Shown in pieces: positions 3,159 through 18,645 of a stretch of DNA of 23,107 bases. The first letter of the stretch is position 1; each line of letters opens with the position of its first letter. The stretch spans positions 1 to 23,107 of the IMG/VR virus record IMGVR_UViG_3300032799_000074; one strand, given 5' to 3'. Below the pieces are notes generated by a model. It saw nothing but the letters and a program-made list of their open reading frames with translations. It was not told the DNA's origin and did not search any database. Both the position numbers and the translations under genes were made by a program. This stretch comes from a virus.

Positions 3159-3611
3159 TTGAATAAATTGCCGATACCAAAATCGTTCCTTTGCCTTGCC
3201 GCTAAAATGACTACGAAAGAACTCGCCTATAAGTATCATGTCTCGGATCGCACCATCGATAATTGGAAGCAAAAAAGCGGGATCGTTTTCCGCAAGGCAA
3301 ATGCGATTGATTATGATCGCATGGATGACCTTATCCGGGAATTCAAGACGACGCGGGAGATCATGGCCGCGATGGGCTGCGTAAAGTCCACAGTCAATCT
3401 TCGCAAGCAGAAACTCGGCTTGGGTCGCAAAGCAATGACTCACGGCTCGAAAATCCGATACGAACAGAGCGAGAAAATCATCCCACCCGCCGAGCGCCTT
3501 GAACAAGCAATCAAAATCAAACGCAAGAATCTCTGTTTCACATCGACGCAAATGGACTGGTGGCTCAAGGGTCCGGCGGGGGCGCAATTTATCGGGGGGA
3601 TAAATGGGTAA
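3159..3611 (+). CDS. Helix-turn-helix DNA-binding protein, 150 aa
   Basis: The protein has two HTH-like segments: MTTKELAYKYHVSDRTIDNW (about residues 17-36) and a second around REIMAAMGCVKSTVNLRKQ, an arrangement seen in resolvase-like or homeodomain-like phage regulators. The start is uncertain: TTG at 3159 has GAGGAG six bases upstream, which I favour; ATG at 3208 lacks a ribosome-binding site and would begin at the HTH; the long upstream extension overlaps the Cro-like gene and looks non-coding. It follows the small regulator and precedes an HNH gene, overlapping it by 8 bases. It may be a transcription factor or a replication accessory. Confidence 0.7.
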   Translation: MNKLPIPKSFLCLAAKMTTKELAYKYHVSDRTIDNWKQKSGIVFRKANAIDYDRMDDLIREFKTTREIMAAMGCVKSTVNLRKQKLGLGRKAMTHGSKIRYEQSEKIIPPAERLEQAIKIKRKNLCFTSTQMDWWLKGPAGAQFIGGING

Positions 3612-3906
3612 ACGTCTGCCCTCGACTCCTCGATCAAAGGTCCGGGCCGCGCTTCGGAAGTTGAGCCTGAGAAGCCGGGAACGTTCCGCCGCCCTTAAAC
3701 GCGATCATTACATCTGTCAAGTCTGCGGTGTCAAGCAATCAAAACGGAAAGGACACGAGGTCCAAGTGGAATGCCATCACCGTGACAAAGAAATACTATG
3801 GGACGTACTCATAGATACTGTGTATGAGATGCTTTTGGTGCATCCAGATTCATGGATAACCCTCTGTAAAGATTGTCACAAAAAGGAACATAATGAAAAA
3901 GGTTAA
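3604..3906 (+). CDS. HNH-family nuclease with altered C-terminus, 100 aa
   Basis: A basic N-terminus (LRKLSLRSRERSAALKRDHY) precedes a zinc-bound HNH fold: CQVC (38-41), ECHHR (57-60), and CKDCH (88-92). Conserved histidines fit the beta-beta-alpha metal site that cleaves DNA. GGGGGGATAA precedes the ATG. The first two thirds have the GC level of the neighbouring genes, while the last third looks AT-rich. The ending CHKKEHNEKG is mirrored by CHQRETDD at the end of the following endonuclease VII gene, suggesting that this tail was replaced when that gene inserted. A role in phage recombination, packaging or homing is possible. Confidence 0.8.
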   Translation: MGKRLPSTPRSKVRAALRKLSLRSRERSAALKRDHYICQVCGVKQSKRKGHEVQVECHHRDKEILWDVLIDTVYEMLLVHPDSWITLCKDCHKKEHNEKG

Positions 3907-4543
3907 AATTGTCTGCGCTTATTGTAATGCGATTGTTGATGTTTGGGATTACCGTAAAAAAACAGCCAAATATTGCTCGGCTTCATGTAGATACAAAGGA
4001 ATTTCCGCCACTAAACGAGCAAAATGGAAGGAGATTTTTGAATCCGACCAAAAAAAATGTTCCCTTTGTAAGGAAACGAAATCTTTTTCTGATTTTTATA
4101 AAAGTAAGCAAAAATGGGATGGTTATGACTCTTGGTGTAAAAAGTGTAAATTATTAGCAAACCGTAAATATGTAAAACATCCCGAAGTTGCCGCCAGAAA
4201 ACGCGCATTCCGCATAAAATATAATCTGAATACTAAGGAAAAACGTAAATTTGTCAGGATGAGACATTTATATGGTTTGTCTTTTGAAGAATATAACTCC
4301 CTTGTTGCCGGACAAGCGGGGAAATGTGGAATCTGTGGAGAATCTTTCGTATTTGATCGATTTTGTCACATAGATCATTGCCATGAAACAAATATTGTAC
4401 GTGGTCTATTATGCCATAAATGCAACGCCGGGTTGGGATTTTTCCGAGAATCAAAAGAGATACTCTTAAAGGCCATTTCTTATATCGAGAAATGCCACCA
4501 GCGCGAGACCGACGACATCATCATCAAGGAGACGGGGATATGA
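3893..4543 (+). CDS. Endonuclease VII-type recombination endonuclease, 216 aa
   Basis: Residues 125-185 match the Endonuclease_7 family (T4 gp49 type): LYGLSFEEYNSLVAGQAGKC, CGIC (145-148), DHCH (161-164) and CHKCNAGLG (174-182), the zinc and catalytic elements of its HNH-like core. T4 gp49 resolves Holliday junctions. The N-terminal 90 residues add two cysteine clusters (CAYC, C-SASC; CSLC, CKKC) resembling DNA-binding fingers of mobile HNH proteins. The gene is AT-rich until codon 200, then turns GC-rich for CHQRETDDIIIKETGI, which looks like the displaced tail of the upstream HNH gene fused in frame. It is probably a mobile free-standing endonuclease. Confidence 0.85.
   Translation: MKKVKIVCAYCNAIVDVWDYRKKTAKYCSASCRYKGISATKRAKWKEIFESDQKKCSLCKETKSFSDFYKSKQKWDGYDSWCKKCKLLANRKYVKHPEVAARKRAFRIKYNLNTKEKRKFVRMRHLYGLSFEEYNSLVAGQAGKCGICGESFVFDRFCHIDHCHETNIVRGLLCHKCNAGLGFFRESKEILLKAISYIEKCHQRETDDIIIKETGI
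4493..4543 (+). repeat. Displaced HNH gene tail fused to endonuclease VII gene
   Basis: The codons for C-H-Q-R-E (4493-4507) parallel C-H-K-K-E at 3874-3888 in the upstream HNH gene (TGC versus TGT, CAC in both, GAG versus GAA). From here to the stop the base composition returns to that of the older HNH part. Read as the original 3' end of the HNH gene left behind after insertion. Confidence 0.55.
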
Positions 4544-4785
4544 AAAACGCATGGACAGAGGAGGTTGACCGCCTCCGGGCGGAGAATAAGGAGTTTTTGG
4601 CGGTGTGTGAGACGGCGATTGGACAGATTGATCAAGCGCAAACGATTATGAGAGATAATGGATATGTGATTGATGATCTCTCTAACCGCTGGCAGAAATT
4701 AGCATTTACGCTTTACAATCTTCTTGTCGAAACAGCCACAGAAGCCGAAGCCGTCCGCGACCGGGTGAAGGGGGAGGGTGCATGA
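4540..4785 (+). CDS. Predicted coiled-coil protein, 81 aa
   Basis: Starts MKNAWTEEVDRLRAENKEFL at an ATG overlapping the previous stop, with AAGGAGACGGGGAT upstream. The sequence is one long amphipathic helix with heptad spacing (EEVDRLRAENKEFLAVCETA), a short break at DNGYVIDDLSN, then another helix with ETATEAEAVRDRV. It lacks cysteine motifs and membrane segments. Such small coiled coils occur widely in early phage operons and usually have no assigned role. It overlaps the methyltransferase start by ATGA, so the two are probably co-translated. Confidence 0.8.
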   Translation: MKNAWTEEVDRLRAENKEFLAVCETAIGQIDQAQTIMRDNGYVIDDLSNRWQKLAFTLYNLLVETATEAEAVRDRVKGEGA

Positions 4786-5183
4786 ACCGCGTTCTGTTTT
4801 CCAGCACCAATCATTGTTGGGAAACGCCGGATGATGTCTATTCCGCCCTTAATGATGAATTTCATTTTGATTTTGATCCTTGCCATAAAGATTCTGTTTG
4901 GGACGGTCTAAGTGTTGAGTGGGGAAAAAGTAACTTTGTTAATCCGCCTTATGGCCACGAGATTGGGAAGTGGTTGGCAAAAGGATTTATGGAAAGTCTT
5001 TTAGACGGCAAAACATGCGTCTTTCTAATTCCCGCTCGGACAGATACACGATGGTTTCACGACTACTGCATGAAATCAAACGAGATCCGTTTCATTAAGG
5101 GGCGACTAAAATTCAAGGGTGCTGTCAATCCGGCTCCATTTCCAAGCATGATCGTTATTTTCAAAACACAGGAGGCCCCATGA
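4782..5183 (+). CDS. dam: Phage DNA N6-adenine methyltransferase (Dam family), 133 aa
   Basis: Matches the phage-type DNA_Dam family: an N-terminal WETPDDVYSALNDEFHFDFD segment (13-32) followed by DPCHKDSV, the catalytic NPPYG (54-58) of amino-methyltransferases, and a C-terminal RFIKGRLKFKG with PFPSMIVIFK. It would transfer a methyl group from S-adenosylmethionine to adenine N6 in DNA. Full family length is about 130-170 aa, so it is probably complete though compact. GGAGGGTGC precedes the ATG. Phages use such enzymes to evade restriction or mark their own DNA; no cognate restriction enzyme is visible. Confidence 0.92.
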   Translation: MNRVLFSSTNHCWETPDDVYSALNDEFHFDFDPCHKDSVWDGLSVEWGKSNFVNPPYGHEIGKWLAKGFMESLLDGKTCVFLIPARTDTRWFHDYCMKSNEIRFIKGRLKFKGAVNPAPFPSMIVIFKTQEAP

Positions 5184-5407
5184 CCCGCAAATCCTTATTA
5201 ATAGCAGGCATAATTGCGATCCTCATCGTCTGGGCGATTTTATATTGGCACCTCTGCATCCCCGAGCCGGTTAGGACATATCAGGAGATCACGCCGAAGG
5301 AGAAGGCATATTTCAGCGAACGGTTCAAATATCACGGCATCGGTGGCTGTGAATGTGACGGTGATGTTTGTTGGTTTGTGAGAGATGGCAAGAGGATGAA
5401 ATTATGA
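5180..5407 (+). CDS. Small membrane-anchored protein, 75 aa
   Basis: A basic start (MTRKS) and one strong transmembrane helix (LLIAGIIAILIVWAILYWHL, about 6-25) precede a 50-residue soluble part with YQEITPKEKAYFSERFKYHG and a cysteine pair (CECDGDVC). The N-terminus is predicted inside, so the cysteine part would face the periplasm, where it could form a disulfide. CAGGAGGCCCC is an excellent ribosome-binding site. It overlaps genes on both sides by ATGA. I do not recognise a family. Confidence 0.8.
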   Translation: MTRKSLLIAGIIAILIVWAILYWHLCIPEPVRTYQEITPKEKAYFSERFKYHGIGGCECDGDVCWFVRDGKRMKL

Positions 5408-5730
5408 AGATTCCCCAAAAGTTAAAGGTTGGCGGACGTGATTATCGTATTTATTATCCTCATATATTTTCGGATAGTTCTCTTCCCCATTATGGACTGC
5501 ATGATTCTGGCGGACAGACGATAAAAATCTCACAGAAAGATGAATTTAATGTCAACAGGAACGACCAAAGCATTCTCCATACGTTCATCCATGAAACATT
5601 ACACGCTATCGACAATGTTTTTAATGGCGGAAGATTAACGGGGTGGGAAAAGGGGGAAGAAACAATAAATCAATTAGCAGAAGGTTTGATGCAGGTGATC
5701 CGGGACAATAAATTGGATTTCAAAGAGTGA
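5404..5730 (+). CDS. Small predicted zinc metallopeptidase-like protein, 108 aa
   Basis: The motif FIHETLHAID contains HExxH (residues 63-67), the zinc-binding and catalytic signature of zincins, placed in a predicted helix. Glutamates about 20 residues later (EKGEETINQLAEGL) are candidates for the third ligand of a gluzincin-like site. The N-terminal part (IPQKLKVGGRDYRIYY) is strand-rich, with a GLHDSGGQTIKIS segment as in small phage and ImmA/IrrE-related putative peptidases. The start overlaps the previous stop (ATGA). Substrate is unknown; cleavage of a host or phage regulator would be inference. Confidence 0.8.
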   Translation: MKIPQKLKVGGRDYRIYYPHIFSDSSLPHYGLHDSGGQTIKISQKDEFNVNRNDQSILHTFIHETLHAIDNVFNGGRLTGWEKGEETINQLAEGLMQVIRDNKLDFKE

Positions 5731-5737
5731 GGTTGGA

Positions 5738-5998
5738 ATGAAAAAGTTGGCGAAAAAAGCGGCAAATTTCATGGGGATTAAAGGCGTCGAACTTTATGGC
5801 GTCGTCTATGAGTTTTCCCAAAATTCAGATTCATGTCAATCACCGGATGACGGTCAATCAATTAAGGTTTTTACTGAGGATGCTGGCGGTGGATCATATA
5901 TCGTTTTTTCAACAGAACGGTGGGCCATAGATGCGGAAGATATAGATAAATTTGCCGAAACCCTAAAAAGGATTGTCAACATGCCGGAGGAGAGATGA
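5738..5998 (+). CDS. Hypothetical protein, 86 aa
   Basis: A basic N-terminus (MKKLAKKAANFMGIKG) is followed by a strand-rich domain (VELYGVVYEF, IKVFTEDAGGGSYIVFSTERW) and a C-terminal helix (DAEDIDKFAETLKRIVN). The alternating pattern suggests a compact alpha/beta fold similar in outline to small phage regulators, but I recognise no family. GAGGTTGGA precedes the ATG, and the stop overlaps the next start. Confidence 0.75.
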   Translation: MKKLAKKAANFMGIKGVELYGVVYEFSQNSDSCQSPDDGQSIKVFTEDAGGGSYIVFSTERWAIDAEDIDKFAETLKRIVNMPEER

Positions 5999-6243
5999 TT
6001 GAAATTGAAAGGGTGGACAACGGATATACCTGCCAGTGGTGGGAGAACAACGAGGAGGGCGAGGAACTTGTCAAACACCAGCAGGTTTTTGAAGAGATTA
6101 ACAAGGAACACGGAGAAATAGAATGCTTCCAGCAACTTCTTTGGTTCATAACAGAGCATTTCGGCATGGTCGGAAGTAAGCACGATACGCGGCGAATAAG
6201 TATCGCGATAGGAGACGAAGATGCTGACGGTATATGTTCGTAA
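5995..6243 (+). CDS. Hypothetical protein, 82 aa
   Basis: Begins MIEIERVDNGYTCQWWENNE after a strong GGAGGAGAG site. The first 25 residues form a beta hairpin typical of small phage proteins that carry the pattern 'NGYxxxW.....E'; this is followed by helices (QVFEEINKEHGEIECFQQLL). A family role is not known to me. The acidic C-terminus overlaps the next gene by 23 bases. It is likely a member of the early operon with no enzymatic motif. Confidence 0.75.
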   Translation: MIEIERVDNGYTCQWWENNEEGEELVKHQQVFEEINKEHGEIECFQQLLWFITEHFGMVGSKHDTRRISIAIGDEDADGICS

Positions 6244-6574
6244 TATCAAAACGGTCAAAGACATTGCCGACTATGAATACATCGTCATGGTCAACGCGGA
6301 AAAGATCGCGGAAGGCAAAGTATTAAAACACAAACGATCCGACGGATGGGTGCCGTTGATTAGGGGGATTGTGGAGCAGAATGAAAAGAATGAAGAGAAA
6401 AAGGGTTATGAAAACGCCGCCCTTCGCTGTGAGCTAAAAAGGACAAAACTGCATCTGGATCGGCTGTCTCAAGAAATCGGAAAGAGGATTGATACGTTTT
6501 CCGGTGTACCCAAAACGGGTACAAACGTACTCAATATAGAGACAATCTATCCACCGATTGTGAAAGGGAAATGA
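6221..6574 (+). CDS. Hypothetical protein, 117 aa
   Basis: Starts MLTVYVRNIKTVKDIADYEY, overlapping the upstream gene, with TAGGAGACGA as ribosome-binding site. The N-terminal half is strand-rich. The middle (residues 50-92) is a charged helix (EKNEEKKGYENAALRCELKR) that probably forms a coiled coil, and the tail contains FSGVPKTGTNVLN. No catalytic motif or membrane segment is seen. Its ATGATG overlap with the next gene indicates coupling. Confidence 0.75.
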   Translation: MLTVYVRNIKTVKDIADYEYIVMVNAEKIAEGKVLKHKRSDGWVPLIRGIVEQNEKNEEKKGYENAALRCELKRTKLHLDRLSQEIGKRIDTFSGVPKTGTNVLNIETIYPPIVKGK

Positions 6575-6744
6575 TGGAAAAGACTAAATGCCCTATCTGC
6601 CAGGGTACGGGATTCGCAAATGGCAAATTGTGCATCTGCATTACCGGAAAAAAGCCGGAAGGTATGCCAGATTTACCGGACGGATGGGCGGACATTTTCG
6701 AGGACATTTTCCACTACAAAGGGGATAAAAAAGAGACAAAGTAG
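6571..6744 (+). CDS. Small zinc-finger protein, DnaJ-like knuckle, 57 aa
   Basis: The protein MMEKTKCPICQGTGFANGKL then CIC contains CxxCxGxG, the knuckle of DnaJ zinc fingers, plus a second CIC pair (21-23) that can complete one zinc site. The remainder is acidic with aromatic residues (DGWADIFEDIFHYKGD). AAGGGAA precedes the first ATG; the ATG three bases later is equally possible. It ends the gene group before a repeated control element. Confidence 0.75.
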   Translation: MMEKTKCPICQGTGFANGKLCICITGKKPEGMPDLPDGWADIFEDIFHYKGDKKETK

Positions 6745-6752
6745 CGGAAAAG

Positions 6753-6817
6753 TACCCGCACGGGAATATCCCGACACTTTTCACGAAATATTGTCGTGAT
6801 TATACCCGTTCGGGAAT
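6753..6817 (+). promoter_or_regulatory. Control element A: paired CCCGnnCGGGAAT boxes 50 bp apart
   Basis: Two palindromic boxes, TACCCGCACGGGAAT (6753-6767) and TACCCGTTCGGGAAT (6803-6817), start exactly 50 bases apart. Between them lies a conserved CGACACTTT and TTG...TGATTAT, a possible extended -10. The element ends just before the ribosome-binding site of the next gene. A second copy lies at 8619-8681. Confidence 0.65.
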
Positions 6818-6833
6818 TAAAAGGAGAAAAGTG

Positions 6834-7025
6834 ATGGAAAAACCTGAATGGTGGCCGGAATGTCCATATCCTGAATCGGTATTTACTATGACAGAGGACG
6901 AATATGTAAAGGCAATTCCCGATCCGCATTTACGGACCGCAATCAGTGGATTCTGTGGGCGTTATTTTTGGACTCTCGCATCCGATTTTATATGGGAGAA
7001 ATTTCAAGATGAATCCAATGGATAA
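6834..7025 (+). CDS. Hypothetical protein, 63 aa
   Basis: First gene after control element A. Starts MEKPEWWPECPYPESVFTMT, with AAGGAG seven bases upstream; a GTG immediately before the ATG is a weaker choice. The WWPECPYPESVF opening followed by an acidic TEDEYVKAIPD segment and an aromatic C-terminus (FCGRYFWTLASDFIWE) recalls short unnamed phage proteins that begin with 'PxWWPxCPYP'. I know of no function. It overlaps the following gene by 17 bases. Confidence 0.75.
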   Translation: MEKPEWWPECPYPESVFTMTEDEYVKAIPDPHLRTAISGFCGRYFWTLASDFIWEKFQDESNG

Positions 7026-7299
7026 AAATACCAGCAAAAGTAAATTTGTGCCTGTTTCTTTAACGGAAGAAAGCGTGATGAATTATGATGCTCTCGCTCC
7101 GGAACTGTATGGATGGCGGTATTTCCGCGTTGAGTATGGCGGATGTAATGAATGTTGCTTCATGGAGCGGCCTATTTGGCTGCCGCCAATGGCCGACGCC
7201 TACATTTTCGACCTGCTGTTCGACTTCTGGCAATCGAAACGCACAAAAAGACGGAAACTCTTGCATCAGATAATTCAAGAATTGGAGAGGGGATTATGA
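7009..7299 (+). CDS. Hypothetical protein, 96 aa
   Basis: Start chosen at MNPMDKNTSKSKF because GGGAGA lies nine bases upstream; the next ATG, three codons later, has no site. The protein has a strand-rich centre with CNECCF (about residues 50-55), which may bind metal, then WLPPMADAYIFDLLFDFWQS and a basic C-terminal helix (KRTKRRKLLHQIIQELE). I recognise no family. Its last codons overlap the deoxyribosyltransferase-like gene by ATGA. Confidence 0.75.
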   Translation: MNPMDKNTSKSKFVPVSLTEESVMNYDALAPELYGWRYFRVEYGGCNECCFMERPIWLPPMADAYIFDLLFDFWQSKRTKRRKLLHQIIQELERGL

Positions 7300-7613
7300 A
7301 GAAAATCTATATTGCGTCACCATACACCAAAGGAAATGCTTCTGTTAATGTCAAACGGCAAATAGATGCCGCAAATGAGTTAATTGATGCTGGATTTTGC
7401 CCCCTTACTCCTCTTCTGTTACATTTCCATAATATAGTGCATCCGAGACCCTATGACGATTGGATCAAGATTGACCGGGAATGGGTCATTGTCTGCGATG
7501 CCATTCTGCGACTCCCCGGCGAATCAAAGGGAGCCGATAACGAAGTTGCCTTAGCCATAAGACGGGGTATTCCCGTTTTTCATTCAATCGAAGAACTTAA
7601 GAGGTTATTATAA
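7296..7613 (+). CDS. Nucleoside 2-deoxyribosyltransferase-like protein (DUF4406), 105 aa
   Basis: Begins MKKIYIASPYTKGNASVNVK, the nucleotide-binding strand-loop of this superfamily, followed by AANELIDAGFCPLTP and the signature LPGESKGADNEVALAIRRGI (73-92), in which E83 corresponds to the usual catalytic or ribose-contacting glutamate. DUF4406 members are widespread in phages and are related to enzymes that swap bases on deoxyribose; they may alter nucleotide pools or clear modified nucleotides. The length is normal for the family. Exact substrate unknown. Confidence 0.9.
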   Translation: MKKIYIASPYTKGNASVNVKRQIDAANELIDAGFCPLTPLLLHFHNIVHPRPYDDWIKIDREWVIVCDAILRLPGESKGADNEVALAIRRGIPVFHSIEELKRLL

Positions 7614-7837
7614 TGCCACTTAGATGGACCGCAGAAGAAGAAGATGTTTTAAGGAAAATGGCTCAAACGAAAATGGATTACGGGAAAATGGCAATGGTTT
7701 TGAAATCAAGAACACCAAAGGCGATAGAATGTCATTGTTTTGATCTTGGAATTCGACTCCCGAAAAATACCAGCGAAATAGATTTTGAGGCTTTCAAAAA
7801 CTTAATGAAAACTGTGAGGAATCCGAAATGTGTATGA
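7613..7837 (+). CDS. Myb/SANT-like helix-turn-helix protein, 74 aa
   Basis: Residues 4-48 (RWTAEEEDVLRKMAQTKMDY, then KMAMVLKSRTPKAIECHCFD) show the W...E(E/D)..L spacing and third recognition helix of Myb/SANT-type DNA-binding domains found in phage small regulators. GAGG lies 10 bases upstream and the start overlaps the previous stop (TAATG). The C-terminal 25 residues are an extra helix. It overlaps the phosphoesterase gene by 10 bases, suggesting one operon. Target unknown. Confidence 0.8.
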   Translation: MPLRWTAEEEDVLRKMAQTKMDYGKMAMVLKSRTPKAIECHCFDLGIRLPKNTSEIDFEAFKNLMKTVRNPKCV

Positions 7838-8616
7838 TGGCTGTTGTAGCAGATATGCAGGTTGGTCATGTAGCGGCTCTATGGCCGGAAAAATTCAAAA
7901 TAAACGAGCAGGGAAACATTCTTGAACTTGCCACCCATCAAAATATTTTACTGGAATATTGGCGGGATTTTTGGAATAGCAGAGAAGCAAAAGAAGCCGA
8001 ATATGTCCTCAATCTTGCTGAATCTATTGAAGGAAATAACCGAAAAGAATTTGGAAAGTGTCTAATGTCGCCAGATATTGATATTCAATGTATGGCTTCT
8101 GTCAAACTAATCAAGCCATACATTCAGGGCAAGAAATATTTTGGTCTTGTTGGATCTAAATATCACACATCCCTTGATGTAAATTGTGAGCAACATATTG
8201 CCAAAGAGCTGAAGGGTGAATTTTGCGGCGATATCGCCAATCTGAAAATCAAAAAAACTGGTCATGTTGTATGGGCGACACATAAGGGCGGCGATGCAAT
8301 GTTATACCGTTCAACAATGCTTGACAGAAACAGCCTCTATTTTTCAGCTATCAAATCAAAAATTGAAGATGATCCCGATATCATCATTTATGGGCATCAT
8401 CATAAATGCTTCAGGGTCGATACCGAAACACGGATCAATATAATCGCTCCGTCGTGGTGCTTCTGGCATCCCATTAAGGGAGCTGCGAAATTTCCCTATA
8501 CTCAACCTACCATCGGCGGTCTGATATTGAAATTTCCCAAAAGGCGCGGACAGATCGAGGTCATAAAAAAGTTTTATCCTCTGGAACATATTTATAGTGC
8601 CTTGTGTGCGGTTTGA
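7828..8616 (+). CDS. Calcineurin-like metallophosphoesterase, 262 aa
   Basis: Metal-binding landmarks of the superfamily are visible in order: D9-x4-H14 (ADMQVGH), a GSKYH segment (109-113) at the usual GNH(D/E) position, H152 in WATHKGG, and GHHH (189-192) near the C-terminus. The family hydrolyses phosphate esters or nucleic acids; phage members resemble SbcD/Mre11-type or small phosphodiesterases. The GSKYH variant, with serine and lysine for the usual asparagine region, matches a phage subgroup from memory. A ribosome-binding site is not obvious (GAGGAATCCGAA), so it may be translationally coupled. It precedes the replication gene. Confidence 0.88.
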   Translation: MCMMAVVADMQVGHVAALWPEKFKINEQGNILELATHQNILLEYWRDFWNSREAKEAEYVLNLAESIEGNNRKEFGKCLMSPDIDIQCMASVKLIKPYIQGKKYFGLVGSKYHTSLDVNCEQHIAKELKGEFCGDIANLKIKKTGHVVWATHKGGDAMLYRSTMLDRNSLYFSAIKSKIEDDPDIIIYGHHHKCFRVDTETRINIIAPSWCFWHPIKGAAKFPYTQPTIGGLILKFPKRRGQIEVIKKFYPLEHIYSALCAV

Positions 8617-8618
8617 TT

Positions 8619-8681
8619 CCCTACCGGGAATATCGCGACACTTTGCGCGTCATTTTGCCATGATTATGTATGATCGGGAAT
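8619..8681 (+). promoter_or_regulatory. Control element B: second copy of the paired CGGGAAT boxes
   Basis: ATTCCC-TACC-GGGAAT is a dyad, and the CGGGAAT at 8625 recurs at 8675, again exactly 50 bases later. Aligned with element A, 46 of 60 positions match, including CGACACTTT and TGATTAT. The second box also provides the only ribosome-binding-like sequence (GGGAA) before the replication gene, so a bound protein could block translation as well. Confidence 0.65.
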
Positions 8682-8685
8682 AAAA

Positions 8686-9435
8686 ATGGATTGGATTAAG
8701 GTTTTGAATAAGCACATCTTGGCAGAATACTCCGATTTGAAAGATTCTGAGTTTGCCGCATGGATCAAAATAATGGCCCTTACCGCCGAGCTGGAACATG
8801 AACCAACGAGGGCGCAAATTCTGAAACACGTCCATTATAAAACCTTAACAAGCCTTCAAGACAAGCTCAATACACATTCAATAGACCTTCAATACATCGT
8901 CAATAAGGTCTTAATAGACGTTCAATACACAGTCAATAAGAAGAGGGAATGGAAAGAAAATAGTCAACAATATCGAGAAAGAAAGCGCTTAGAGAATACC
9001 ACCGTCATAGAGACGTCTTGTGCAGATAAGATAAGATTAGATAAGATAAGAGATATAAAGAAAGACATTGCGATCCCTGAATGGATAAAACCAGAGACCT
9101 GGACCGCCTTCCTTGAAGTTAGAAAAAAGCTAAAAGCACCCGACACAGAACACGCCCTAAGGACCATCATAACCAAACTTGAAAAACTTAAAGCCACAGG
9201 ACAAAACCCAAACGAGATATTAGATGAATCAATATCAAATGGTTGGAAGGGGGTATTTCCATTAAAGAATGGAGGACAAGATGGAAAACGAGCGCGAAAC
9301 AGCGGCGGAGGATCAGGGATACCGCATCCAAAGGAATGGGTTGGAGAAACACCGCCCGTTATTTCCGAAGATGAAAGAGCAGCCAACTTGCTACGAATAC
9401 GAGGATTTATCGGAGAAGGGTCTGGTTCGGATTGA
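8686..9435 (+). CDS. Replication initiation / replisome-organiser-like protein, 249 aa
   Basis: The N-terminus (KVLNKHILAEYSDLKDSEFA) resembles winged-helix phage replication proteins. A repeat-encoded middle follows (IDLQYIVNKVL and IDVQYTVNKKR), then a C-terminal helical domain with IKPETWTAFLEVRKKLKAPD and NEILDESISNGWKGVFPLK, typical of DnaD/lambda-O-like and DUF1376-associated proteins that load the helicase. The tail has PHPKEWVGETPPVISEDERA, also seen in this group. The coding DNA contains 11-bp iterons and an AT-rich tract, as lambda O contains its origin. It directly follows control element B. No helicase is visible; the host DnaB is probably recruited. Confidence 0.8.
   Translation: MDWIKVLNKHILAEYSDLKDSEFAAWIKIMALTAELEHEPTRAQILKHVHYKTLTSLQDKLNTHSIDLQYIVNKVLIDVQYTVNKKREWKENSQQYRERKRLENTTVIETSCADKIRLDKIRDIKKDIAIPEWIKPETWTAFLEVRKKLKAPDTEHALRTIITKLEKLKATGQNPNEILDESISNGWKGVFPLKNGGQDGKRARNSGGGSGIPHPKEWVGETPPVISEDERAANLLRIRGFIGEGSGSD
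8868..8944. repeat. Seven 11-bp iterons, candidate origin
   Basis: Seven consecutive 11-bp units with consensus CAATAnACntT start at 8868, 8879, 8890, 8901, 8912, 8923 and 8934; two weaker units may precede them. The 11-bp step keeps each site on one DNA face. Three units (33 bp) also create an 11-residue protein repeat. Confidence 0.7.
9024..9060. repeat. AT-rich tandem repeat, possible unwinding element
   Basis: GATAAGATAAGA occurs twice with a 15-base period and is followed by GATATAAAG. The purine/AT-rich tract lies about 80 bases after the iterons, as the unwinding region does in lambda ori. Confidence 0.5.
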
Positions 9436-9556: not shown

Positions 9557-9572
9557 AAACAAGGATTAATTA

Positions 9573-9920: not shown

Positions 9921-9921
9921 T

Positions 9922-9947: not shown

Positions 9948-9964
9948 CCTCGCAGTTATTATTT

Positions 9965-10114: not shown

Positions 10115-10135
10115 TTCTCTGTTTATCCTCCAGTT

Positions 10136-11152: not shown

Positions 11153-11159
11153 TTCTCCC

Positions 11160-12543: not shown

Positions 12544-12598
12544 GTCGGGACGAGGGGTGGCTATCGGATGACGATTCATGCTCTGCCTACGTCCCGAC
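12544..12598. repeat. 9-bp inverted repeat GTCGGGACG / CGTCCCGAC with inner hairpin
   Basis: Perfect arms (12544-12552, 12590-12598) enclose an inner ATCG-GATGA-CGAT hairpin. Just before it lie a GTGCC/GGCAC hairpin and a long C tract. This would fold as a branched RNA or single-stranded DNA structure. No T tract follows, so it is not a terminator on the plus strand. Confidence 0.55.
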
Positions 12599-12738
12599 AT
12601 GCGCCCATACTTTTCTCAAACCAAAAAGGGTTTGTATTCCACCCGTGGGGCTATGGCATTTGGGGTGTGATATTGTTGAGTATTTAGGAAGGGGTTTGTT
12701 GGGGGATATTTGGTGGAATTTTTCTCAAAAGAAAACAC

Positions 12739-12767
12739 TTGACGGTAATCTGTAAACCTGATAGGGT
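12739..12767 (+). promoter_or_regulatory. Predicted rightward promoter
   Basis: TTGACG (12739-12744), 17-base spacer, TAGGGT (12762-12767). The start would be near 12774, just before GGAG and the ATG at 12790. The -35 is good and the -10 poor, as for activator-dependent late promoters. Confidence 0.45.
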
Positions 12768-12789
12768 AATAATTATGGAGTCCAATTAG

Positions 12790-13053
12790 ATGGATTGTTT
12801 ATATTGCCACAAGCCATTGAAGGGGGCGTCGAAGAAGTACCATGTGGAGTGTGGGAATATAGTAAACAGGATAAAGGCGAAGGAGCGATATGATCTGGAC
12901 CCGGAGCCGTCGAGGGCGTGTTCTCGGAGGCGGAAGAAGAGGCCGAAATGCACGTGTTGCGGGAGGAATCCGATAGGCAAGGGGAACAGGTTTTTGTGTG
13001 ATCTGTGTTTTGAGAATGATGGAGATGGCTGGAGAGAAGATAGTGGGAAATGA
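12790..13053 (+). CDS. Small double zinc-finger protein, 87 aa
   Basis: Two cysteine clusters are visible: CLYC (3-6) with H18 and C21, and CTCC (54-57) followed by CDLC (70-73). A basic bridge (SRRRKKRPK) lies between them, so nucleic-acid binding is likely. TGGAG is placed eight bases before the ATG. It is the first gene of the rightward late region, and its arginine codons are mostly AGG/CGG, giving a GC-rich third position. It resembles unnamed phage zinc proteins near terminase; function not established. Confidence 0.75.
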   Translation: MDCLYCHKPLKGASKKYHVECGNIVNRIKAKERYDLDPEPSRACSRRRKKRPKCTCCGRNPIGKGNRFLCDLCFENDGDGWREDSGK

Positions 13054-13092
13054 GGGGTTGACATAAACCCGTAAAGGTGGTACAGGTGAGTT

Positions 13093-13245
13093 ATGTTGGA
13101 TCGGGAAACGATGAAACTTTATCAGAGGGCGCGGCGGAAGAGACTGAAGGATCTCCATAGGGACGAGATTACGTTAAGGATTGATGGGATAGAGGAGAGG
13201 GTGTATTTGCTGGAGAGGAAAGTGAAGGATGAAGAAAAGGACTAA
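13093..13245 (+). CDS. Small coiled-coil protein, 50 aa
   Basis: Starts MLDRETMKLYQRARRKRLKD after AGGTGAGTT. Nearly every residue is charged, with heptad leucine/valine spacing in EERVYLLERKVKDEEK, so a coiled-coil helix is likely. It overlaps the next gene by 17 bases. The function is unknown; basic N-terminus and acidic C-terminus suggest a binding adaptor. Confidence 0.7.
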   Translation: MLDRETMKLYQRARRKRLKDLHRDEITLRIDGIEERVYLLERKVKDEEKD

Positions 13246-13507
13246 AGATGAGGAGAGGGCCTATAAAAAACTTTGGCGGTCGCGCAAACCCGTCCCACCT
13301 TGTCCCACCACCGCCGTTTTGACTGTCGTTGATGTCCCACCTGTCCCACCCGATGACAAGGATGTGGTGATAAAGATTTTGAGGGCGAAGGTTTTGATGT
13401 TGGAGAAGGAACTGGGTCTTTTGAAAAAGGACAAGAGGGAATCCATTCAATTGGACGGCCAGGGGCTGAAACCGACGAGTCCTTACAGATTTGGTCCGGG
13501 ATTATGA
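13229..13507 (+). CDS. Hypothetical basic/coiled-coil protein, 92 aa
   Basis: Starts MKKRTKDEERAYKKLWRSRK within the tail of the preceding gene, with AGAGG upstream. A proline/valine-rich centre (VPPCPTTAVLTVVDVPPVPP) links to a helix (KILRAKVLMLEKELGLLKKD) with leucine heptads. No enzyme motif. The stop overlaps the next start by ATGA. Likely a small structural or adaptor protein. Confidence 0.68.
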   Translation: MKKRTKDEERAYKKLWRSRKPVPPCPTTAVLTVVDVPPVPPDDKDVVIKILRAKVLMLEKELGLLKKDKRESIQLDGQGLKPTSPYRFGPGL

Positions 13508-13641
13508 TTGGCGATAAATGGGCGGACAGTCCCAAGGGATTCTGGGCCTTGATCGGCTTGACGATTCTTTTTGGGATCGCCTATTTATTCGGGGCGAAGA
13601 AACTGATTGACTGGACGTTGAGAAAGATGACGGAGGAATGA
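13504..13641 (+). CDS. Single-pass membrane protein, 45 aa
   Basis: Starts MIGDKWADSPKGFWALIGLT. A transmembrane helix (FWALIGLTILFGIAYLFGA, about 13-31) is followed by a basic amphipathic tail (KKLIDWTLRKMTEE). The ATG overlaps the previous stop; the upstream coding sequence has GGTCCGGG as weak ribosome-binding site, so it is probably coupled. The size and topology match many small phage holin-like or accessory membrane peptides, but there is no lysin next to it. Confidence 0.65.
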   Translation: MIGDKWADSPKGFWALIGLTILFGIAYLFGAKKLIDWTLRKMTEE

Positions 13642-13749
13642 ATGGCGGGTGGCTCAAATAGGATAACATGACGGGATATCACGGAACATGTTTTAACCGA
13701 TCCGGCGGGACTACCCACCGGGAAGATTGTCGGCCAAGCCTACCCACTT

Positions 13750-13795
13750 GACTGCCGGGTGCAGCGACGCCGAAAGGTGACTCCGCCCGGCGGTC
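13750..13795 (+). ncRNA. Structured leader hairpin with GNRA inner loop
   Basis: A 10-bp stem (13750-13759 with 13786-13795, including one G-U) encloses a second short stem CGCC-GAAA-GGTG (13768-13779) across an internal loop. It ends nine bases before the AAGGAGG of the next gene. No T tract follows, so it is a leader structure rather than a terminator; it may act on translation. I match it to no known riboswitch. Confidence 0.5.
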
Positions 13796-13814
13796 ATTAA
13801 AAAAGGAGGACAAT

Positions 13815-13988
13815 ATGAGTCCAGCAGTATCGAAGAAGCAAAGAAGGGCAATAGCAATCGCGGAACACGAGCCGGGGAAACTTTACAAGAGAAATGCGGG
13901 CCTAAAGAAGATGTCAAAAAAGGACGCACATGAGTTTGCATCGACAAAAGAAAAAGGACTTCCATTAAAAAAGAAGAAAAAGAAATAG
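13815..13988 (+). CDS. Small lysine-rich phage protein (DUF3008-like), 57 aa
   Basis: The sequence MSPAVSKKQRRAIAIAEHEP, then KLYKRNAGLKKMSKKDAHEF and STKEKGLPLKKKKKK, is the recognisable 'PAVSKxQ(R/Q)...HxPxKLYKRN...FASTxxKGLP' small protein placed near terminase in many phages. Its function is not known; the strongly basic tail suggests DNA or RNA contact. AAGGAGGACAAT lies upstream, under the structured leader. The DUF assignment is from memory of the pattern. Confidence 0.8.
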   Translation: MSPAVSKKQRRAIAIAEHEPGKLYKRNAGLKKMSKKDAHEFASTKEKGLPLKKKKKK

Positions 13989-13995
13989 GAGTCTT

Positions 13996-14601
13996 ATGGG
14001 TATCAAGATAGACGAAAACGTAATGATGCAGATGTATCGAGACGGCAAGAATGCGGCTGATATCGCCAGACATTTCGGCTGTACGTATATGGCTGTCGTG
14101 AACATGAAGAAGCGTGTTGAAGGAAGGCTTCTCAGGGTTCCCGATGTCAGCGGGTCGCAACTGTCAAGACAGAACATTGATACTGTGGCTCAGTTAAAAC
14201 TGATGAACGAACACGTTCTAAAAGAACTGAAACGAAGCCAAAGATTAATTGACCGAGAAGATAAGCTGGTCATTGAATACGACAGGTTGGAAAAACAGGT
14301 CAAGAAAGACCCAACAAACAACGAACTGATCCAAAAACTAAAGGTTGCTTACGCGGGGGTGAGCGTCCCCGACATTCTGAAAATCCAGACCAACATCATC
14401 GCCATTTCCGGCGAGGTCCGAAAACAGATCGAACTTCAGGTGAAAATCTTTGAGACCATTTACAACGTCACGATGGTGAGTGAGTTCCAAGAGGAGATCA
14501 TTGAGCTTCTGAGACAGGTCGATCCTGTGTTAAAAGACCAAATTATCAAGAAACTCAAAGAACGTCGAAACATCCGAAGCATAACCAAAATGGACAACTA
14601 A
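13996..14601 (+). CDS. terS: Terminase small subunit (putative), 201 aa
   Basis: The N-terminal 40 residues form an HTH (ENVMMQMYRDGKNAADIARH followed by CTYMAVVNMKKRV), which would bind the packaging site. Residues 60-130 are long charged helices (LKLMNEHVLKELKRSQRLID), and a C-terminal helical part (SEFQEEIIELLRQVDPVLKD) may contact the large subunit. Position immediately before terL and the HTH-plus-coiled-coil order support the call; sequence similarity to named families is not evident to me. The stop overlaps the ATG of the next ORF (TAATG), as expected if terL originally started there. Confidence 0.75.
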   Translation: MGIKIDENVMMQMYRDGKNAADIARHFGCTYMAVVNMKKRVEGRLLRVPDVSGSQLSRQNIDTVAQLKLMNEHVLKELKRSQRLIDREDKLVIEYDRLEKQVKKDPTNNELIQKLKVAYAGVSVPDILKIQTNIIAISGEVRKQIELQVKIFETIYNVTMVSEFQEEIIELLRQVDPVLKDQIIKKLKERRNIRSITKMDN

Positions 14602-14783
14602 TGACCTCACGTGGCGAACTAAAAATCGACAAGGACACACAACGGGTTGTTTTGGACACACAAAATCTTTTGGATGAGCAAAACATTCCAAAAGGTTCTC
14701 GTTGGATACGAATAGGGAATACGTTCTATCGCTTAGAAATAGATCCCGATCTTAAACTGACCGCAATTCCAGATTTGTTTTAA
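14601..14783 (+). CDS. Small inserted ORF sharing the terL start, 60 aa
   Basis: Its first eight residues, MTSRGELK, are the same as those of TerL, with synonymous changes at T (ACC/ACA), S (TCA/TCC) and K (AAA/AAG). Afterwards it diverges into IDKDTQRVVLDTQNLLDEQN and a strand-rich tail (GSRWIRIGNTFYRLEIDPDL). It lies exactly between terS and terL and uses the TAATG overlap with terS. I read it as cargo inserted at codon 8 of terL that took over the old start while a recoded start serves terL. Function unknown. Confidence 0.7.
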   Translation: MTSRGELKIDKDTQRVVLDTQNLLDEQNIPKGSRWIRIGNTFYRLEIDPDLKLTAIPDLF

Positions 14784-14792
14784 GGATAATAA

Positions 14793-16406
14793 ATGACATC
14801 CCGTGGCGAACTAAAGAAAGCTGAGTATTTCACTAATCTACTGAACTCGATTGACACGGCTTTCTATAACGAAGAAGATAAGCCAGACCTCGGCAGTTGG
14901 GCGTTAAGCAACCGAATCCTACTTGACGGCAGGGAATTTCAATTCAAGAAGCATGAATACCTTATAGAACCCTATGCCGACAATCATCCCTTTCAGGTTG
15001 AACTGAAGGCCGCCCAGTTAGGATTAACCTCTAAAGCCCTTCTTCGGGTTGTACATGGATCGAGATACGGGAAGTACCGGGGCATCCTCTACCTATTTCC
15101 TTCCAAGACAGACGTTACGGACCTTTCCAAGTCTCGTCTTGATCCCCTGATTGAAGATAACCCAGATACCATTGGATCGTGGTTGAAAGAAACCGATTCG
15201 GCAAACATCAAGAAAATCTGGAATAGTTACCTCTATCTCAGGGGGATGCAGTCGAGGATCGGATTGAAAGGAATCCCGGTGGACCTGATTGTTTTCGATG
15301 AGTTAGACGAGGCTCCCCAAAAAGCTGTCGATATGGCGAATGAGAGAATGGGGCATTCGGACATAGGGGAAAGTCTTTTCCTGTCCAACCCCACCATGCC
15401 GGATTACGGAATTGATAAACTGTTCCAGACAAGCGACCAGAGATACTGGCTTTTAAAATGTCCCAAGTGCAATCACTACACAAACCTGATCGACACCTTC
15501 CCGGACTGCCTGATTACTGTAAAGGGAAAGGTCATAAGGGCTTGCGAGAAGTGTCATGCGGAACTCAACCCGTCCATCGGGGAATGGGTCGCCAAAAGAC
15601 CTTCGATCACCGAAAGAAGGGGGCGGCAGTATTCGCAACTCTTTTCCCAGTCTCGCACTACAACCCCCGAAACCATGCTCCAGATGTGGCGCACGACGAC
15701 TAACGTAACAAGTTATATGAACCTAAAGGTCGGCGTGGCCCATGTGGAAGCCCAAAACCGACTTTCCGTACAGGAGGTTTTGGATTGCTGTGGAACGAAA
15801 GGGATGGATAGCAGTTCTGACGTAGGAACCTTCATGGGAGTGGATCAAGGGAACAATCTTCATGTCGTCATAGGAAAGGCAAGCGAAAGTCGTTCCGGAG
15901 AGATTATCTATATGGGGATTCACAAAGGAAACGATTCCACTAACCCCGGAGACGAAAGCGGTTGGTTTGAATTAGATGCCCTGATGAAAAGATTCAGAGT
16001 CGTAAGGTGTGTCGTGGACGCCATGCCGAATACCAAATTCGCCCGGAACTTCGCCGAAAGACACAAGGGAAGGGTCTATATGAACTTCTATAACGAGTTC
16101 CAGAAGGGGTCACTAAAATGGAACGACAAAGAACTGATCGTACAAGGGAACCGTACAGAAACACTTGATGCCTCTCATAATCTTGTCTCGACACAGAACA
16201 TTATTCTACCGAGACAGTCGGATATGGTAAGGACGTTTGCCCTTCAGATGCACAATGTCGCCAAAAGGTTAGAAGTGGATGAAGAGACTGGGAGTCAGAG
16301 ATACGCATATTTGAGATTGGGCGACGATCACTTCAGGCACGCTTTTTCATATTTCGTAATGGGGCTACAGGGATGTCCCGAGTTTTATTTTCCCGAGTTA
16401 ATGTAG
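14793..16406 (+). CDS. terL: Terminase large subunit, GpA-like, 537 aa
   Basis: The ATPase has a degenerate Walker A, AAQLGLTSKALL (73-84), as in lambda gpA relatives, and Walker B VDLIVFDELDEA (163-174). A zinc-binding pair CPKC (223-226) and CEKC (251-254) follows. The RNase-H-type nuclease shows D351 (FMGVDQG), D409 (CVVDAMPN) and D511/D512-H513 (GDDHFRHAF). It cuts and translocates DNA into the head with TerS and portal. AAGGATAATAA precedes the ATG. Both ends are peculiar: the first eight codons are duplicated upstream at 14601, and the last codons FPELM-stop are duplicated after the downstream HNH gene. Confidence 0.95.
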   Translation: MTSRGELKKAEYFTNLLNSIDTAFYNEEDKPDLGSWALSNRILLDGREFQFKKHEYLIEPYADNHPFQVELKAAQLGLTSKALLRVVHGSRYGKYRGILYLFPSKTDVTDLSKSRLDPLIEDNPDTIGSWLKETDSANIKKIWNSYLYLRGMQSRIGLKGIPVDLIVFDELDEAPQKAVDMANERMGHSDIGESLFLSNPTMPDYGIDKLFQTSDQRYWLLKCPKCNHYTNLIDTFPDCLITVKGKVIRACEKCHAELNPSIGEWVAKRPSITERRGRQYSQLFSQSRTTTPETMLQMWRTTTNVTSYMNLKVGVAHVEAQNRLSVQEVLDCCGTKGMDSSSDVGTFMGVDQGNNLHVVIGKASESRSGEIIYMGIHKGNDSTNPGDESGWFELDALMKRFRVVRCVVDAMPNTKFARNFAERHKGRVYMNFYNEFQKGSLKWNDKELIVQGNRTETLDASHNLVSTQNIILPRQSDMVRTFALQMHNVAKRLEVDEETGSQRYAYLRLGDDHFRHAFSYFVMGLQGCPEFYFPELM

Positions 16407-16412
16407 GCACTT

Positions 16413-17129
16413 ATGAAGATATGCAGTAGATGTAAAACGGAAAAAGACGTGACCGAATATTATAAAAGTACTCGCAATAATGATGGTTTGAATTATCATT
16501 GCAAGGAATGTGTTGCCAGGGAACGTTCTAATAGAGATGCAAAAAACAAAGAAGCAATATCTTTATGGAGAAAAAATTGGTATCAGAAAAACAGAGAGAA
16601 AGTATTAGAATCTTGTCGGATTTATAACTTAAAAAATCCAGAAAAAAACAGAGAGAAGGCTCGGGCCGCTTATTGGAAAGATCCGGAAAGGTGTAAACAA
16701 CGTACGGCAAGATGGATAAAGGAACATCCGGAAAGAGTCAGGTCTTATTATCAAGGGAAAACAAGACCGAGTACCAAAACCATTAAATATAGACTAAACA
16801 ATAGCATACGGGGATCTATATCAAAATCAATAACAAGGGGAACAAAAAGAAACAGACGATGGGGTGACCTTGTTGGATATAATATTGACCAATTAAAAAG
16901 ACATCTTGAAAAACAATTTTTAGAAGGAATGTCGTGGGATAACTATGGAGAATGGCATATAGATCACATAGTTCCGATTTCGGTATTTAATTTTGAAAGA
17001 CCCGAAGATATTGATTTTAAAAGATGTTGGTCGTTAAAAAACCTACATCCGTTATGGAAAACAGAGAATCTCCAAAAACACAACAAGATTTACAAGCCTT
17101 TTCAGCCGTCATTATGTGTGGCGGTATGA
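16413..17129 (+). CDS. HNH homing-type endonuclease, 238 aa
   Basis: An N-terminal finger CSRC (4-7) with CKEC (30-33) is followed by a lysine/arginine-rich region holding repeated NPEKNREKAR and PERCKQRTAR segments that resemble DNA-binding NUMOD-like repeats. The catalytic part is EWHIDHIVPIS (180-190) with N210, and ENLQKHNKI (218-226), the HNH signature. It is AT-rich compared with TerL. It begins seven bases after the terL stop and is followed by a second, synonymously recoded FPELM-stop, so it appears to have inserted at the terL 3' end. Its likely target is an uninvaded terL end. Confidence 0.88.
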   Translation: MKICSRCKTEKDVTEYYKSTRNNDGLNYHCKECVARERSNRDAKNKEAISLWRKNWYQKNREKVLESCRIYNLKNPEKNREKARAAYWKDPERCKQRTARWIKEHPERVRSYYQGKTRPSTKTIKYRLNNSIRGSISKSITRGTKRNRRWGDLVGYNIDQLKRHLEKQFLEGMSWDNYGEWHIDHIVPISVFNFERPEDIDFKRCWSLKNLHPLWKTENLQKHNKIYKPFQPSLCVAV

Positions 17130-17131
17130 TG

Positions 17132-17149
17132 TTCCCGGAATTGATGTGA
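17132..17149 (+). repeat. terL: Second copy of terL C-terminal codons (FPELM-stop)
   Basis: TTC CCG GAA TTG ATG TGA here against TTT CCC GAG TTA ATG TAG at 16389-16406: four codons are synonymous variants, M is the same, and the stop type differs. It is not translated as part of TerL. It is likely the displaced original terL tail, and its TGAGGAGG now serves as ribosome-binding site for the next gene. Confidence 0.7.
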
Positions 17150-17158
17150 GGAGGGATT

Positions 17159-17335
17159 ATGCACTATGTCGGTTGTAATAAGGGGGATTTTCCAATGTGT
17201 CCTTTTTGTAATAAACGGTTAATTAAAATTCAACGTCATTTCTTATATACTGTATTTTGGTTTAGATGGAAATGCGGAAAATGTAAACGAATCTTTACTC
17301 TTACTAAGGGTTGTGCAGACAATGTTAGAAATTGA
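17159..17335 (+). CDS. Zinc-ribbon protein, 58 aa
   Basis: The cysteine pairs CPFC (14-17) and CGKC (39-42) with a basic, aromatic middle (KIQRHFLYTVFWFRWK) form a zinc-ribbon. The start has a strong GAGGAGGGATT site. The gene is AT-rich, like the HNH gene before it. After its stop, the string ATTGATGTGAGGA recurs (also at 17141-17153), linking to another possible gene-end junction. I do not recognise a specific family; it could be a single-finger DNA-binding accessory. Confidence 0.7.
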   Translation: MHYVGCNKGDFPMCPFCNKRLIKIQRHFLYTVFWFRWKCGKCKRIFTLTKGCADNVRN

Positions 17336-17347
17336 TGTGAGGAATTT

Positions 17348-17560
17348 ATGAATAATCGGCAAATAAAGAAGATATTCAAGTTATATGGGAGATGGTTCCC
17401 TGTTAGTATTGACTTTATAAAGCCAGAAGGAACAGGGATTGAATATTTTAGTCTGTGTGGTTATGAGAAAAACATTCCATTGAAGAAATTAAAGAAATTT
17501 TATCCGTATTCGATTGATGGAATGAGATTTCACTATTCTATTCACGGGTTAGATTTGTGA
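17348..17560 (+). CDS. Hypothetical protein, 70 aa
   Basis: Starts MNNRQIKKIFKLYGRWFPVS, with TGAGGA nine bases upstream in a repeat shared with the preceding gene. The sequence is lysine- and tyrosine-rich with mixed strands (SIDFIKPEGTGIEYFSLCGY) and an aromatic tail (YSIDGMRFHYSIHGLDL). AT-rich, and lacks known motifs. The stop TGA overlaps a GTG that could start the next gene. It is probably part of the same imported island. Confidence 0.65.
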   Translation: MNNRQIKKIFKLYGRWFPVSIDFIKPEGTGIEYFSLCGYEKNIPLKKLKKFYPYSIDGMRFHYSIHGLDL

Positions 17561-17565
17561 TTGGA

Positions 17566-18141
17566 ATGGAAAATGATGTAAAAATGACACCGCCGACAAT
17601 TTCCGTTCGCCATATCTATGGTGGTCTGGTCTGGCCGGAGAAGGGATATCCGGCATATTGTTGCACCATAGGCGAAAAGATCCCAGAAAAGGACAAATCG
17701 TTTGACCCCGGTTCAATAGGATACCAAATCTATCAGGAATGTGAGGTGAAAACACTTAAGGAACTAAACGAATTCTTGCAAAATGTTCCCAAGTACACAA
17801 AAACCATTTATGCCATGCTGGAACCTCGTTATCATAGTTACATTCGTGATTTCAATAGGTGGAAAAGAGACACGGGATCGGATTTGAGTCTCAAAAGTAC
17901 CAGATCATCCAATTTTGAGGCTTCTCTACTGAAAATCAAGGCATTAGTCCAATCAAATGGACTGACTTTTCCGCCAAAATCGCTTATCAGATCACAGTTA
18001 GCCATGTTTTCCAAGGCGAATCTGTCGGATGAAGTGGAATATTATGCCGTAAGGTCACTATCGTTGGTTATCGGGGCGTTTGATGTTAAACGAAACAGCG
18101 AAACGGGGGAAGTTGTTCCAAAATTGAGGTCGTGGTGGTAA
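17566..18141 (+). CDS. Hypothetical protein, 191 aa
   Basis: Start uncertain: ATG 17566 (MENDVKMTPPTISVRHIYGG) or a GTG nine bases earlier that overlaps the previous stop; neither has a clear ribosome-binding site. The N-terminal part is strand-rich (VRHIYGGLVWPEKGYPAYCC). The middle has LKELNEFLQNVPKYTKTIYA and a helical region follows (FEASLLKIKALVQSNGLTFP). It is close in composition to the terminase and portal genes, so probably resident. Its end, VPKLRSWW, is repeated at 18619 after two small genes. Function unknown; it may be a structural or packaging accessory. Confidence 0.75.
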   Translation: MENDVKMTPPTISVRHIYGGLVWPEKGYPAYCCTIGEKIPEKDKSFDPGSIGYQIYQECEVKTLKELNEFLQNVPKYTKTIYAMLEPRYHSYIRDFNRWKRDTGSDLSLKSTRSSNFEASLLKIKALVQSNGLTFPPKSLIRSQLAMFSKANLSDEVEYYAVRSLSLVIGAFDVKRNSETGEVVPKLRSWW

Positions 18142-18150
18142 GGAGGGGAG

Positions 18151-18318
18151 ATGAAACACATTAGATTTGTGCCCAAAAAGGACATAACACTTAATGAATT
18201 AGCAGAAATAGTTAGAATTATTACTATAATACCCGTAGACGGTGGGGGTGGAAAACAATTAGAGGATTATATTGATAAGTTGCCCGACAACATTAAAAGA
18301 CATATCGAGGAAACGTAA
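18151..18318 (+). CDS. Hypothetical small protein, 55 aa
   Basis: Starts MKHIRFVPKKDITLNELAEI with AAGGAGGGGAG upstream. A hydrophobic helix (VRIITIIPVDGGGG) precedes KQLEDYIDKLPDNIKRHIEE. It is AT-rich compared with genes on either side and sits between the two copies of the VPKLR-WW tail. No known family; the even helix content suggests a small soluble binder. Not homologous to the other cargo by eye. Confidence 0.65.
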   Translation: MKHIRFVPKKDITLNELAEIVRIITIIPVDGGGGKQLEDYIDKLPDNIKRHIEET

Positions 18319-18352
18319 ACTTTAATTAAGTTCTCGGCGGGGAGGGACGAAT

Positions 18353-18613
18353 ATGGGTGATTTAACGGATAAGTTAAAGAAAATAGACAACGGAAGATTT
18401 GAAAAGATAATGAGTGTCTTGGATATATCAGATGTGTGTTTTGAGTGTGGGTACTTTAATTTAACAAAGGGTGATTTTTATAGATGTCGTGTATTTCCCG
18501 GTTGCATTGGAGCAACATTAAGTAAGGATTTAATTTCTTATTTGAATTGGAAGTTGGATTTTATTTCTTCCGAAGAACATTTAACAAATCTAAGGTTAGA
18601 TAGAAAACAATAG
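18353..18613 (+). CDS. Hypothetical protein with cysteine pair, 86 aa
   Basis: Starts MGDLTDKLKKIDNGRFEKIM with GGGGAGGGACGAAT upstream. CFECGYF (29-35), a later C45 in FYRCRVFPG, and C51 in GCIGATLS give four cysteines that could bind zinc or a metal cluster. The C-terminus is helical. AT-rich; sits five bases before the repeated gene tail. Probably cargo of the same insertion as the 55-aa gene. Confidence 0.65.
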   Translation: MGDLTDKLKKIDNGRFEKIMSVLDISDVCFECGYFNLTKGDFYRCRVFPGCIGATLSKDLISYLNWKLDFISSEEHLTNLRLDRKQ

Positions 18614-18618
18614 AGAGG

Positions 18619-18645
18619 GTGCCGAAATTAAGGGCGTGGTGGTAA
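18619..18645 (+). repeat. Second copy of an upstream gene tail (VPKLRAWW-stop)
   Basis: Nine codons parallel 18115-18141. V is GTT there and GTG here, P is CCA/CCG, L is TTG/TTA, S/A is TCG/GCG; K, R, W, W and the TAA stop codons are the same. It has no start codon with a ribosome-binding site and looks like a displaced remnant. Confidence 0.75.

Follow-up and report, generated by a model that had tools for sequence, protein, structure and literature searches.

The window analysed here, the 23,107-base virus record IMGVR_UViG_3300032799_000074 over its whole length, contains an HNH-type gene (locus A) whose 3' end has been replaced: by comparison with an uninvaded relative, the native end now lies further downstream and a foreign one has taken its place beside an endonuclease VII gene. 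The layout, a gene end repeated beyond inserted cargo, recurs at the large terminase gene terL and at the conserved gene orfD (loci B, C and D) as well as in other phages; the copies differ mainly by synonymous changes, and nuclease genes adjoin the repeated ends at A, at C and in phage G001. The reading that best fits these sequences, and which we hold with somewhat better than even confidence, is terminus-replacing homing, whereby an invading element would supply a substitute for the end of the gene that it enters.

Relatives were sought through the large terminase of the window, which gave nine loci at 58–75% identity; the set was then widened to about 90, and for several relatives the whole contig was included (L and G numbers are our handles). 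Repeated ends were detected with an anchored test, in which the terminal codons of a gene are compared by amino-acid score with each stop- or start-anchored stretch past the cargo, using shuffled DNA as the control (2000 shuffles for loci A–D). The features of locus A are:

3604..3906 (+): resident gene, a 100-amino-acid HNH-type protein (PHROG HNH matches), hybrid, native to about codon 78 and then with a foreign 3' end
3838..3906, start approximate (+): carried (replacement) end, closing with LCKDCHKKEHNEKG-stop, delimited by the break in identity to L146
3893..4543 (+): cargo, endonuclease VII-type nuclease open reading frame (ORF) (PF02945, E=5.9e-21; phrog_2633, E=1.7e-35)
4493..4543 (+): displaced native end, CHQRETDDIIIKETGI-stop

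The relative L146 is syntenic with the window but lacks the insert. Its homolog of the locus A gene ends in LCKSCHQRETDGEIIKEIGI-stop, and this end matches window 4493–4543 in the pattern CHQRETD..IIKE.GI-stop at 41 of 51 nucleotides, with a score of 67 where the best of 2000 shuffles reached 30. A protein search placed L146 residues 1–94 on window 3604–3888 and residues 90–105 on 4493–4540, flanking the endonuclease VII gene, whose last ~17 codons overlap the displaced end. Nucleotide identity between the two genes is 0.56–0.61 at first, 0.90 over codons 66–78 and 0.29 over codons 79–85. Given this break at codon 78/79 and the displaced end that matches L146, the window gene is a hybrid; its present end resembles those of other lineages, such as L145 (LCKDCHKKEENK-stop). 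The check put forward in the original prediction, a comparison of the displaced copy with a relative lacking the cargo, thus bore out its proposal that inserts bring a replacement terminus and displace the native one. A donor boundary at the step in G+C content from 0.55 to 0.36 near codon 62 was considered and dropped; the same stretch is AT-rich in L146, which is 90% identical over codons 66–78, and the boundary was therefore moved to codon 78/79. The two ends within the window (3874/4493) have only C-H-x-x-E in common and gave p=0.19 in the gene-end test. Separately, L146, which has no locus A insert, carries an hnhC-family nuclease gene (1742–2500) directly against the start of its counterpart of the locus A gene.

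At locus B it is a gene start that is repeated:

14601..14624 (+): displaced terL start, at the native position overlapping the upstream stop codon
14625..14783 (+): cargo, 52 codons similar to an inner stretch of a phage major head protein, fused to the displaced terL start
14793..14816 (+): carried terL start, MTSRGELK
14793..16406 (+): terL, terminase large subunit (phrog_675, E=2.1e-98)
13996..14601 (+): small terminase-like gene upstream of terL, from its position and an HTH_23 match, with homologs in L001, L002 and L009

Between 14601 and 14793, three of the seven non-start codons of MTSRGELK differ synonymously and none non-synonymously (score 39, p≤0.0005). The terS/terL junction is free of cargo in L001, L021, L023 and L097, where terL begins at the upstream position, at or beside the preceding stop. 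Cargo B aligns at 38% over 37 amino acids with residues 172–208 of an L059 protein that itself matches phrog_267, major head protein, and is probably a gene fragment. The cargo had been described as endonucleases at two loci and tiny AT-rich ORFs at the others; family matches place nucleases at A and C, and at B the second description leaves out the head-protein resemblance.

At locus C the 3' end of terL is repeated:

16383..16406 (+): carried terL end, FYFPELM-stop, from the anchored test and codon comparison
16413..17129 (+): cargo hnhC, endonuclease VII-like HNH nuclease (phrog_1035, E=3.4e-21; homolog in L001)
17126..17149 (+): displaced terL end, MMFPELM-stop
17332..17343 (+): third short terL-end piece TTGATGTGAGGA, an exact 12-mer whose sole other copy lies at 17141

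The first two copies share an identical FPELM-stop, with four synonymous and two non-synonymous differences in seven codons (p=0.0015). The displaced copy is consistent with being the native terL end, on the evidence of one residue, the M before F, which is found in L001, L002, L009, L021 and L024 and absent from the current end. terL and orfD are adjacent, with no locus C cargo, in L021, L023 and L024.

The end of orfD itself is repeated at locus D:

17557..18141 (+): orfD, conserved gene between terL and portal, with homologs in L001, L002 and L009 and no Pfam or PHROG match
18115..18141 (+): carried orfD end, VPKLRSWW-stop, from the anchored test and codon comparison
18151..18318 (+): cargo, 55-amino-acid ORF, G+C at third codon positions (GC3) 0.32
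18353..18613 (+): cargo, 86-amino-acid ORF, GC3 0.29
18619..18645 (+): displaced orfD end, VPKLRAWW-stop

Three of its eight codons differ synonymously and one non-synonymously (p≤0.0005). A single-sequence search with orfD gave no match, and the 86-amino-acid ORF has no relative in the phage collection. The original claim of ends with the same protein sequence but other codons at four loci accordingly stands for B, C and D and not, in that form, for A.

Nine pairs of ends together gave 34 identical codons, 45 with synonymous and 10 with non-synonymous changes. Synonymous changes made up a fraction of 0.82 (45/55) of the changed codons, compared with a neutral mean of 0.16 for an equal number of random changes (p≤0.0002), four of the pairs coming from one phage and two of those sharing a copy, so that the pairs are not fully independent. 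This high share implies that the copies belonged to functional genes of different lineages when they diverged. No special recoding is needed to account for it; ordinary divergence among related phages is sufficient. The expectation that carried ends would be AT-richer throughout was not borne out: G+C is lower in C, D, both L057 genes and G001 and higher in B, G012 and the L057 repeat ending STAQPL.

Comparable arrangements occur in other phages. In L057 the terL end QYQVDLLFPELL-stop is present in three copies with three spellings around two 69-amino-acid ORFs, the gene in the orfD position has a second end, GI(N/S)PRAWT-stop, and GKGDHSTA(Q/K)PL-stop occurs twice, with a shorter third copy, around small ORFs. 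G001 offers the mirror image at a 5' end: MEIKRSPERE lies upstream of an hnhC-family HNH nuclease, the gene start MQIKRSPEREEY lies just past it, and six of nine codons are synonymously changed. A start is likewise repeated around a short zinc-finger-like ORF in G012, and, as a weaker case, the starts MTDEPKKE, MTDDPKKE and MSDPQKPE are repeated ahead of orfD in L002/L003. Searches for uninvaded relatives of the L057 terL and of the G001 gene returned only these sequences themselves. As raw counts, and with a clade set picked around the finding, 708 kb of the clade held seven strong, mainly synonymous pairs (score ≥34) plus locus C at 31, and controls totalling ~966 kb, among them T4, T5, SPO1 and nuclease loci, held two or three, one of them tandem nuclease paralogs; the 150 kb of T4 gave no comparable synonymous gene-end pair. 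Among 82 fetched terL loci, the window apart, a strong displaced end was found in L057 only, with L003/L025 borderline (a four-codon match, PELL-stop). The pattern is patchy across relatives, not universal.

Several candidates were set aside. High-scoring repeats that a wide scan picked up in G010, L038, L089 and L081 probably reflect tandem paralogs or near-exact repetition and not displaced ends, and L080 is undecided. From a survey of 80 hnhC relatives in other viral contigs, L166 and L208 proved to hold tandem nuclease paralogs; the two HNH paralogs of L166 (1590–3301) show 21 synonymous and 6 non-synonymous differences over their last 40 codons.

Three further features surround orfD:

17159..17335 (+): small ORF with weak zinc-ribbon matches, between the second and third terL-end pieces
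17348..17560 (+): 70-amino-acid ORF, from the third terL piece to orfD
18725..20833 (+): structural gene in the portal position, conserved downstream of orfD in L001, L002 and L009

Elsewhere, terL of L009 (same contig as L063) carries at 6384–6823 an intein-like in-frame insertion of ~146 codons after residue 159, beginning CHDDQTEVLTRRGWK, and in L066 an insertion of ~1.1 kb (2517–3616) occupies the same site in terL. The window opens at 1–55 with what seems to be an Illumina index adapter in full (CGGCATACGAGAT...GTGTGCTCTTCCGATCT), an artefact of assembly, and its minus strand encodes at 1892–2743 a protein consisting mostly of pentapeptide repeats (ADLSGANLSGAYLSGA...).

Under terminus-replacing homing, a nuclease of the endonuclease VII or HNH type would cut coding sequence close to a gene terminus in a phage without the element. 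Repair of the break on the donor template, with homology within the gene on one side and little on the other, would yield a gene with the donor terminus, followed by the nuclease gene and, beyond it, the native terminus as a fossil. In a 5' case the order would be mirrored. The gene would thereby be kept whole without intron or intein splicing, and successive rounds could pile up cargo and old termini. Small cargo without a nuclease may represent elements that lost it, genes or fragments copied in during the same repair, or sequences moved in trans. The cutting, the repair route, the resistance of the new terminus and the mobility of the elements are what we infer from this arrangement. An intron or intein layout was not found: terL, orfD and the locus A gene are complete with their own start and stop, and the cargo ORFs start and stop separately. 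We consider it doubtful that phage homing elements do all that a fuller version of the idea demands, namely preserve the invaded gene by a recoded, cut-resistant 5' or 3' end, without RNA or protein splicing, and also mobilise nuclease-free cargo in trans.

The strongest rival, and a serious one, is one-sided recombination between diverged relatives without a dedicated nuclease, in which a homologous crossover in the gene and an illegitimate joint near its end would insert whatever adjoins the donor's gene and leave the old end as debris; nuclease genes would then be merely common neighbours. We rate it as possible, if on the improbable side, and a number of observations that weigh against terminus-replacing homing speak in its favour. 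Most cargos have no recognisable nuclease, family matches being confined to A, C and G001 with none at B and D; cargo B is similar to part of a head gene; and the hnhC relatives are as a rule inserted cleanly, with a displaced end only in G001 among the 80 surveyed. Any related-phage donor would, moreover, produce the synonymous divergence. Homing is further weakened by the displaced terL ends, which begin at different codons (17–18, 12 and about 7 codons), and by two relatives with no displaced end after terL, L001 with an hnhC homolog and L097 with a 68-amino-acid cargo, from which it follows that displacement is not obligatory. What recombination alone accommodates poorly is that several events in the window each lie a short way inside the end of a gene, that a distant relative shows further events where its terL and orfD end, and that a homing-type nuclease directly adjoins the carried end in three independent cases. 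The displaced orfD pieces of the window and of L057 both comprise eight codons, starting eight codons before the stop, which fits a fixed cut site (n=2).

Tandem duplication of a gene end within one genome, with divergence in place, would also set copies on both sides of the cargo, and the copies at locus B and in G012 differ by only 3 nucleotides. A non-coding leftover would, however, lose its amino acids, contrary to the excess of synonymous changes (82% against 16% expected), and the ends at locus A come from different lineages, as L146 shows; we therefore think this explanation very improbable. Chance short matches are the least credible source of the pattern. They would suffice for locus A taken by itself and for the borderline PELL-stop match, but B, C, D, L057, G001 and G012 score at or past the extreme of the shuffled controls and locus A is confirmed via L146. 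Chance is refuted for B, D and A via L146; C rests on p=0.0015.

If terminus-replacing homing is correct, it suggests how a phage can gain genes next to essential ones while leaving the latter intact, and displaced ends can be read as fossils of earlier invasions; the signature of synonymous pairs can be searched for in any genome. The open-access literature searched (subscription papers lay outside the search) held no report of such a layout in phages and no description of its 5' version. The original prediction knew of no described system of this kind; the layout as such has been described, both in yeast WHO elements (PMC7282813) and in the mORFs of fungal mitochondria (PMC3630166).

WHO elements of Torulaspora and Lachancea yeasts combine a nuclease gene with a substitute 3' end for the gene they target; every integration swaps the 3' end of FBA1, and the old 3' fragments stay downstream and stack into clusters, a layout tied to homing by experiment (PMC7282813, eLife 2020). 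The order of carried terminus beside the cargo and native terminus beyond is found at locus A when compared with L146, and the layout at B, C and D is consistent with it. Fragments of other genes are reported in T. globosa WHO10 insertions (PMC7282813), to which the head-gene fragment of cargo B can be likened. The window nucleases differ in matching endonuclease VII/HNH families and not the WHO/HO family, whose members join an intein-like region to a zinc finger. The phage fragments span 5–18 codons, compared with about 400 bp in WHO, and include 5' ends; many phage cargos are nuclease-free, the invaded genes are those of phages, and homing is here predicted from sequence.

According to PMC3630166, which cites Paquin et al. 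1994, the mORF gene hybrids (atp6, atp9, cox2 and nad3 of Glomus) arose by insertion of a C-terminal end together with an endonuclease ORF, displacing the native C-terminal end downstream; the native end matches an uninvaded relative, and the inserted end differs more in DNA than in protein, mainly by synonymous changes. As far as this source describes them, they resemble the phage loci in that a foreign end is carried in with an endonuclease and the native end lies downstream, and they differ in having LAGLIDADG or GIY-YIG nucleases, a mitochondrial setting, 3' ends only and no nuclease-free small cargo. In T4-like phages, the free-standing homing endonucleases seg and mob lie between genes or split them, spread with co-conversion of their flanks and cut hundreds of bases or more away, according to the consulted passages of PMC2988022, which describe no displaced gene end such as those at window loci A and C; the hnhC homolog of L001, a nuclease between genes with otherwise intact flanks, resembles this type. 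Terminus-replacing homing in the window would extend to phages a mechanism so far described in yeast and in fungal mitochondria, and would add a 5' version to it.

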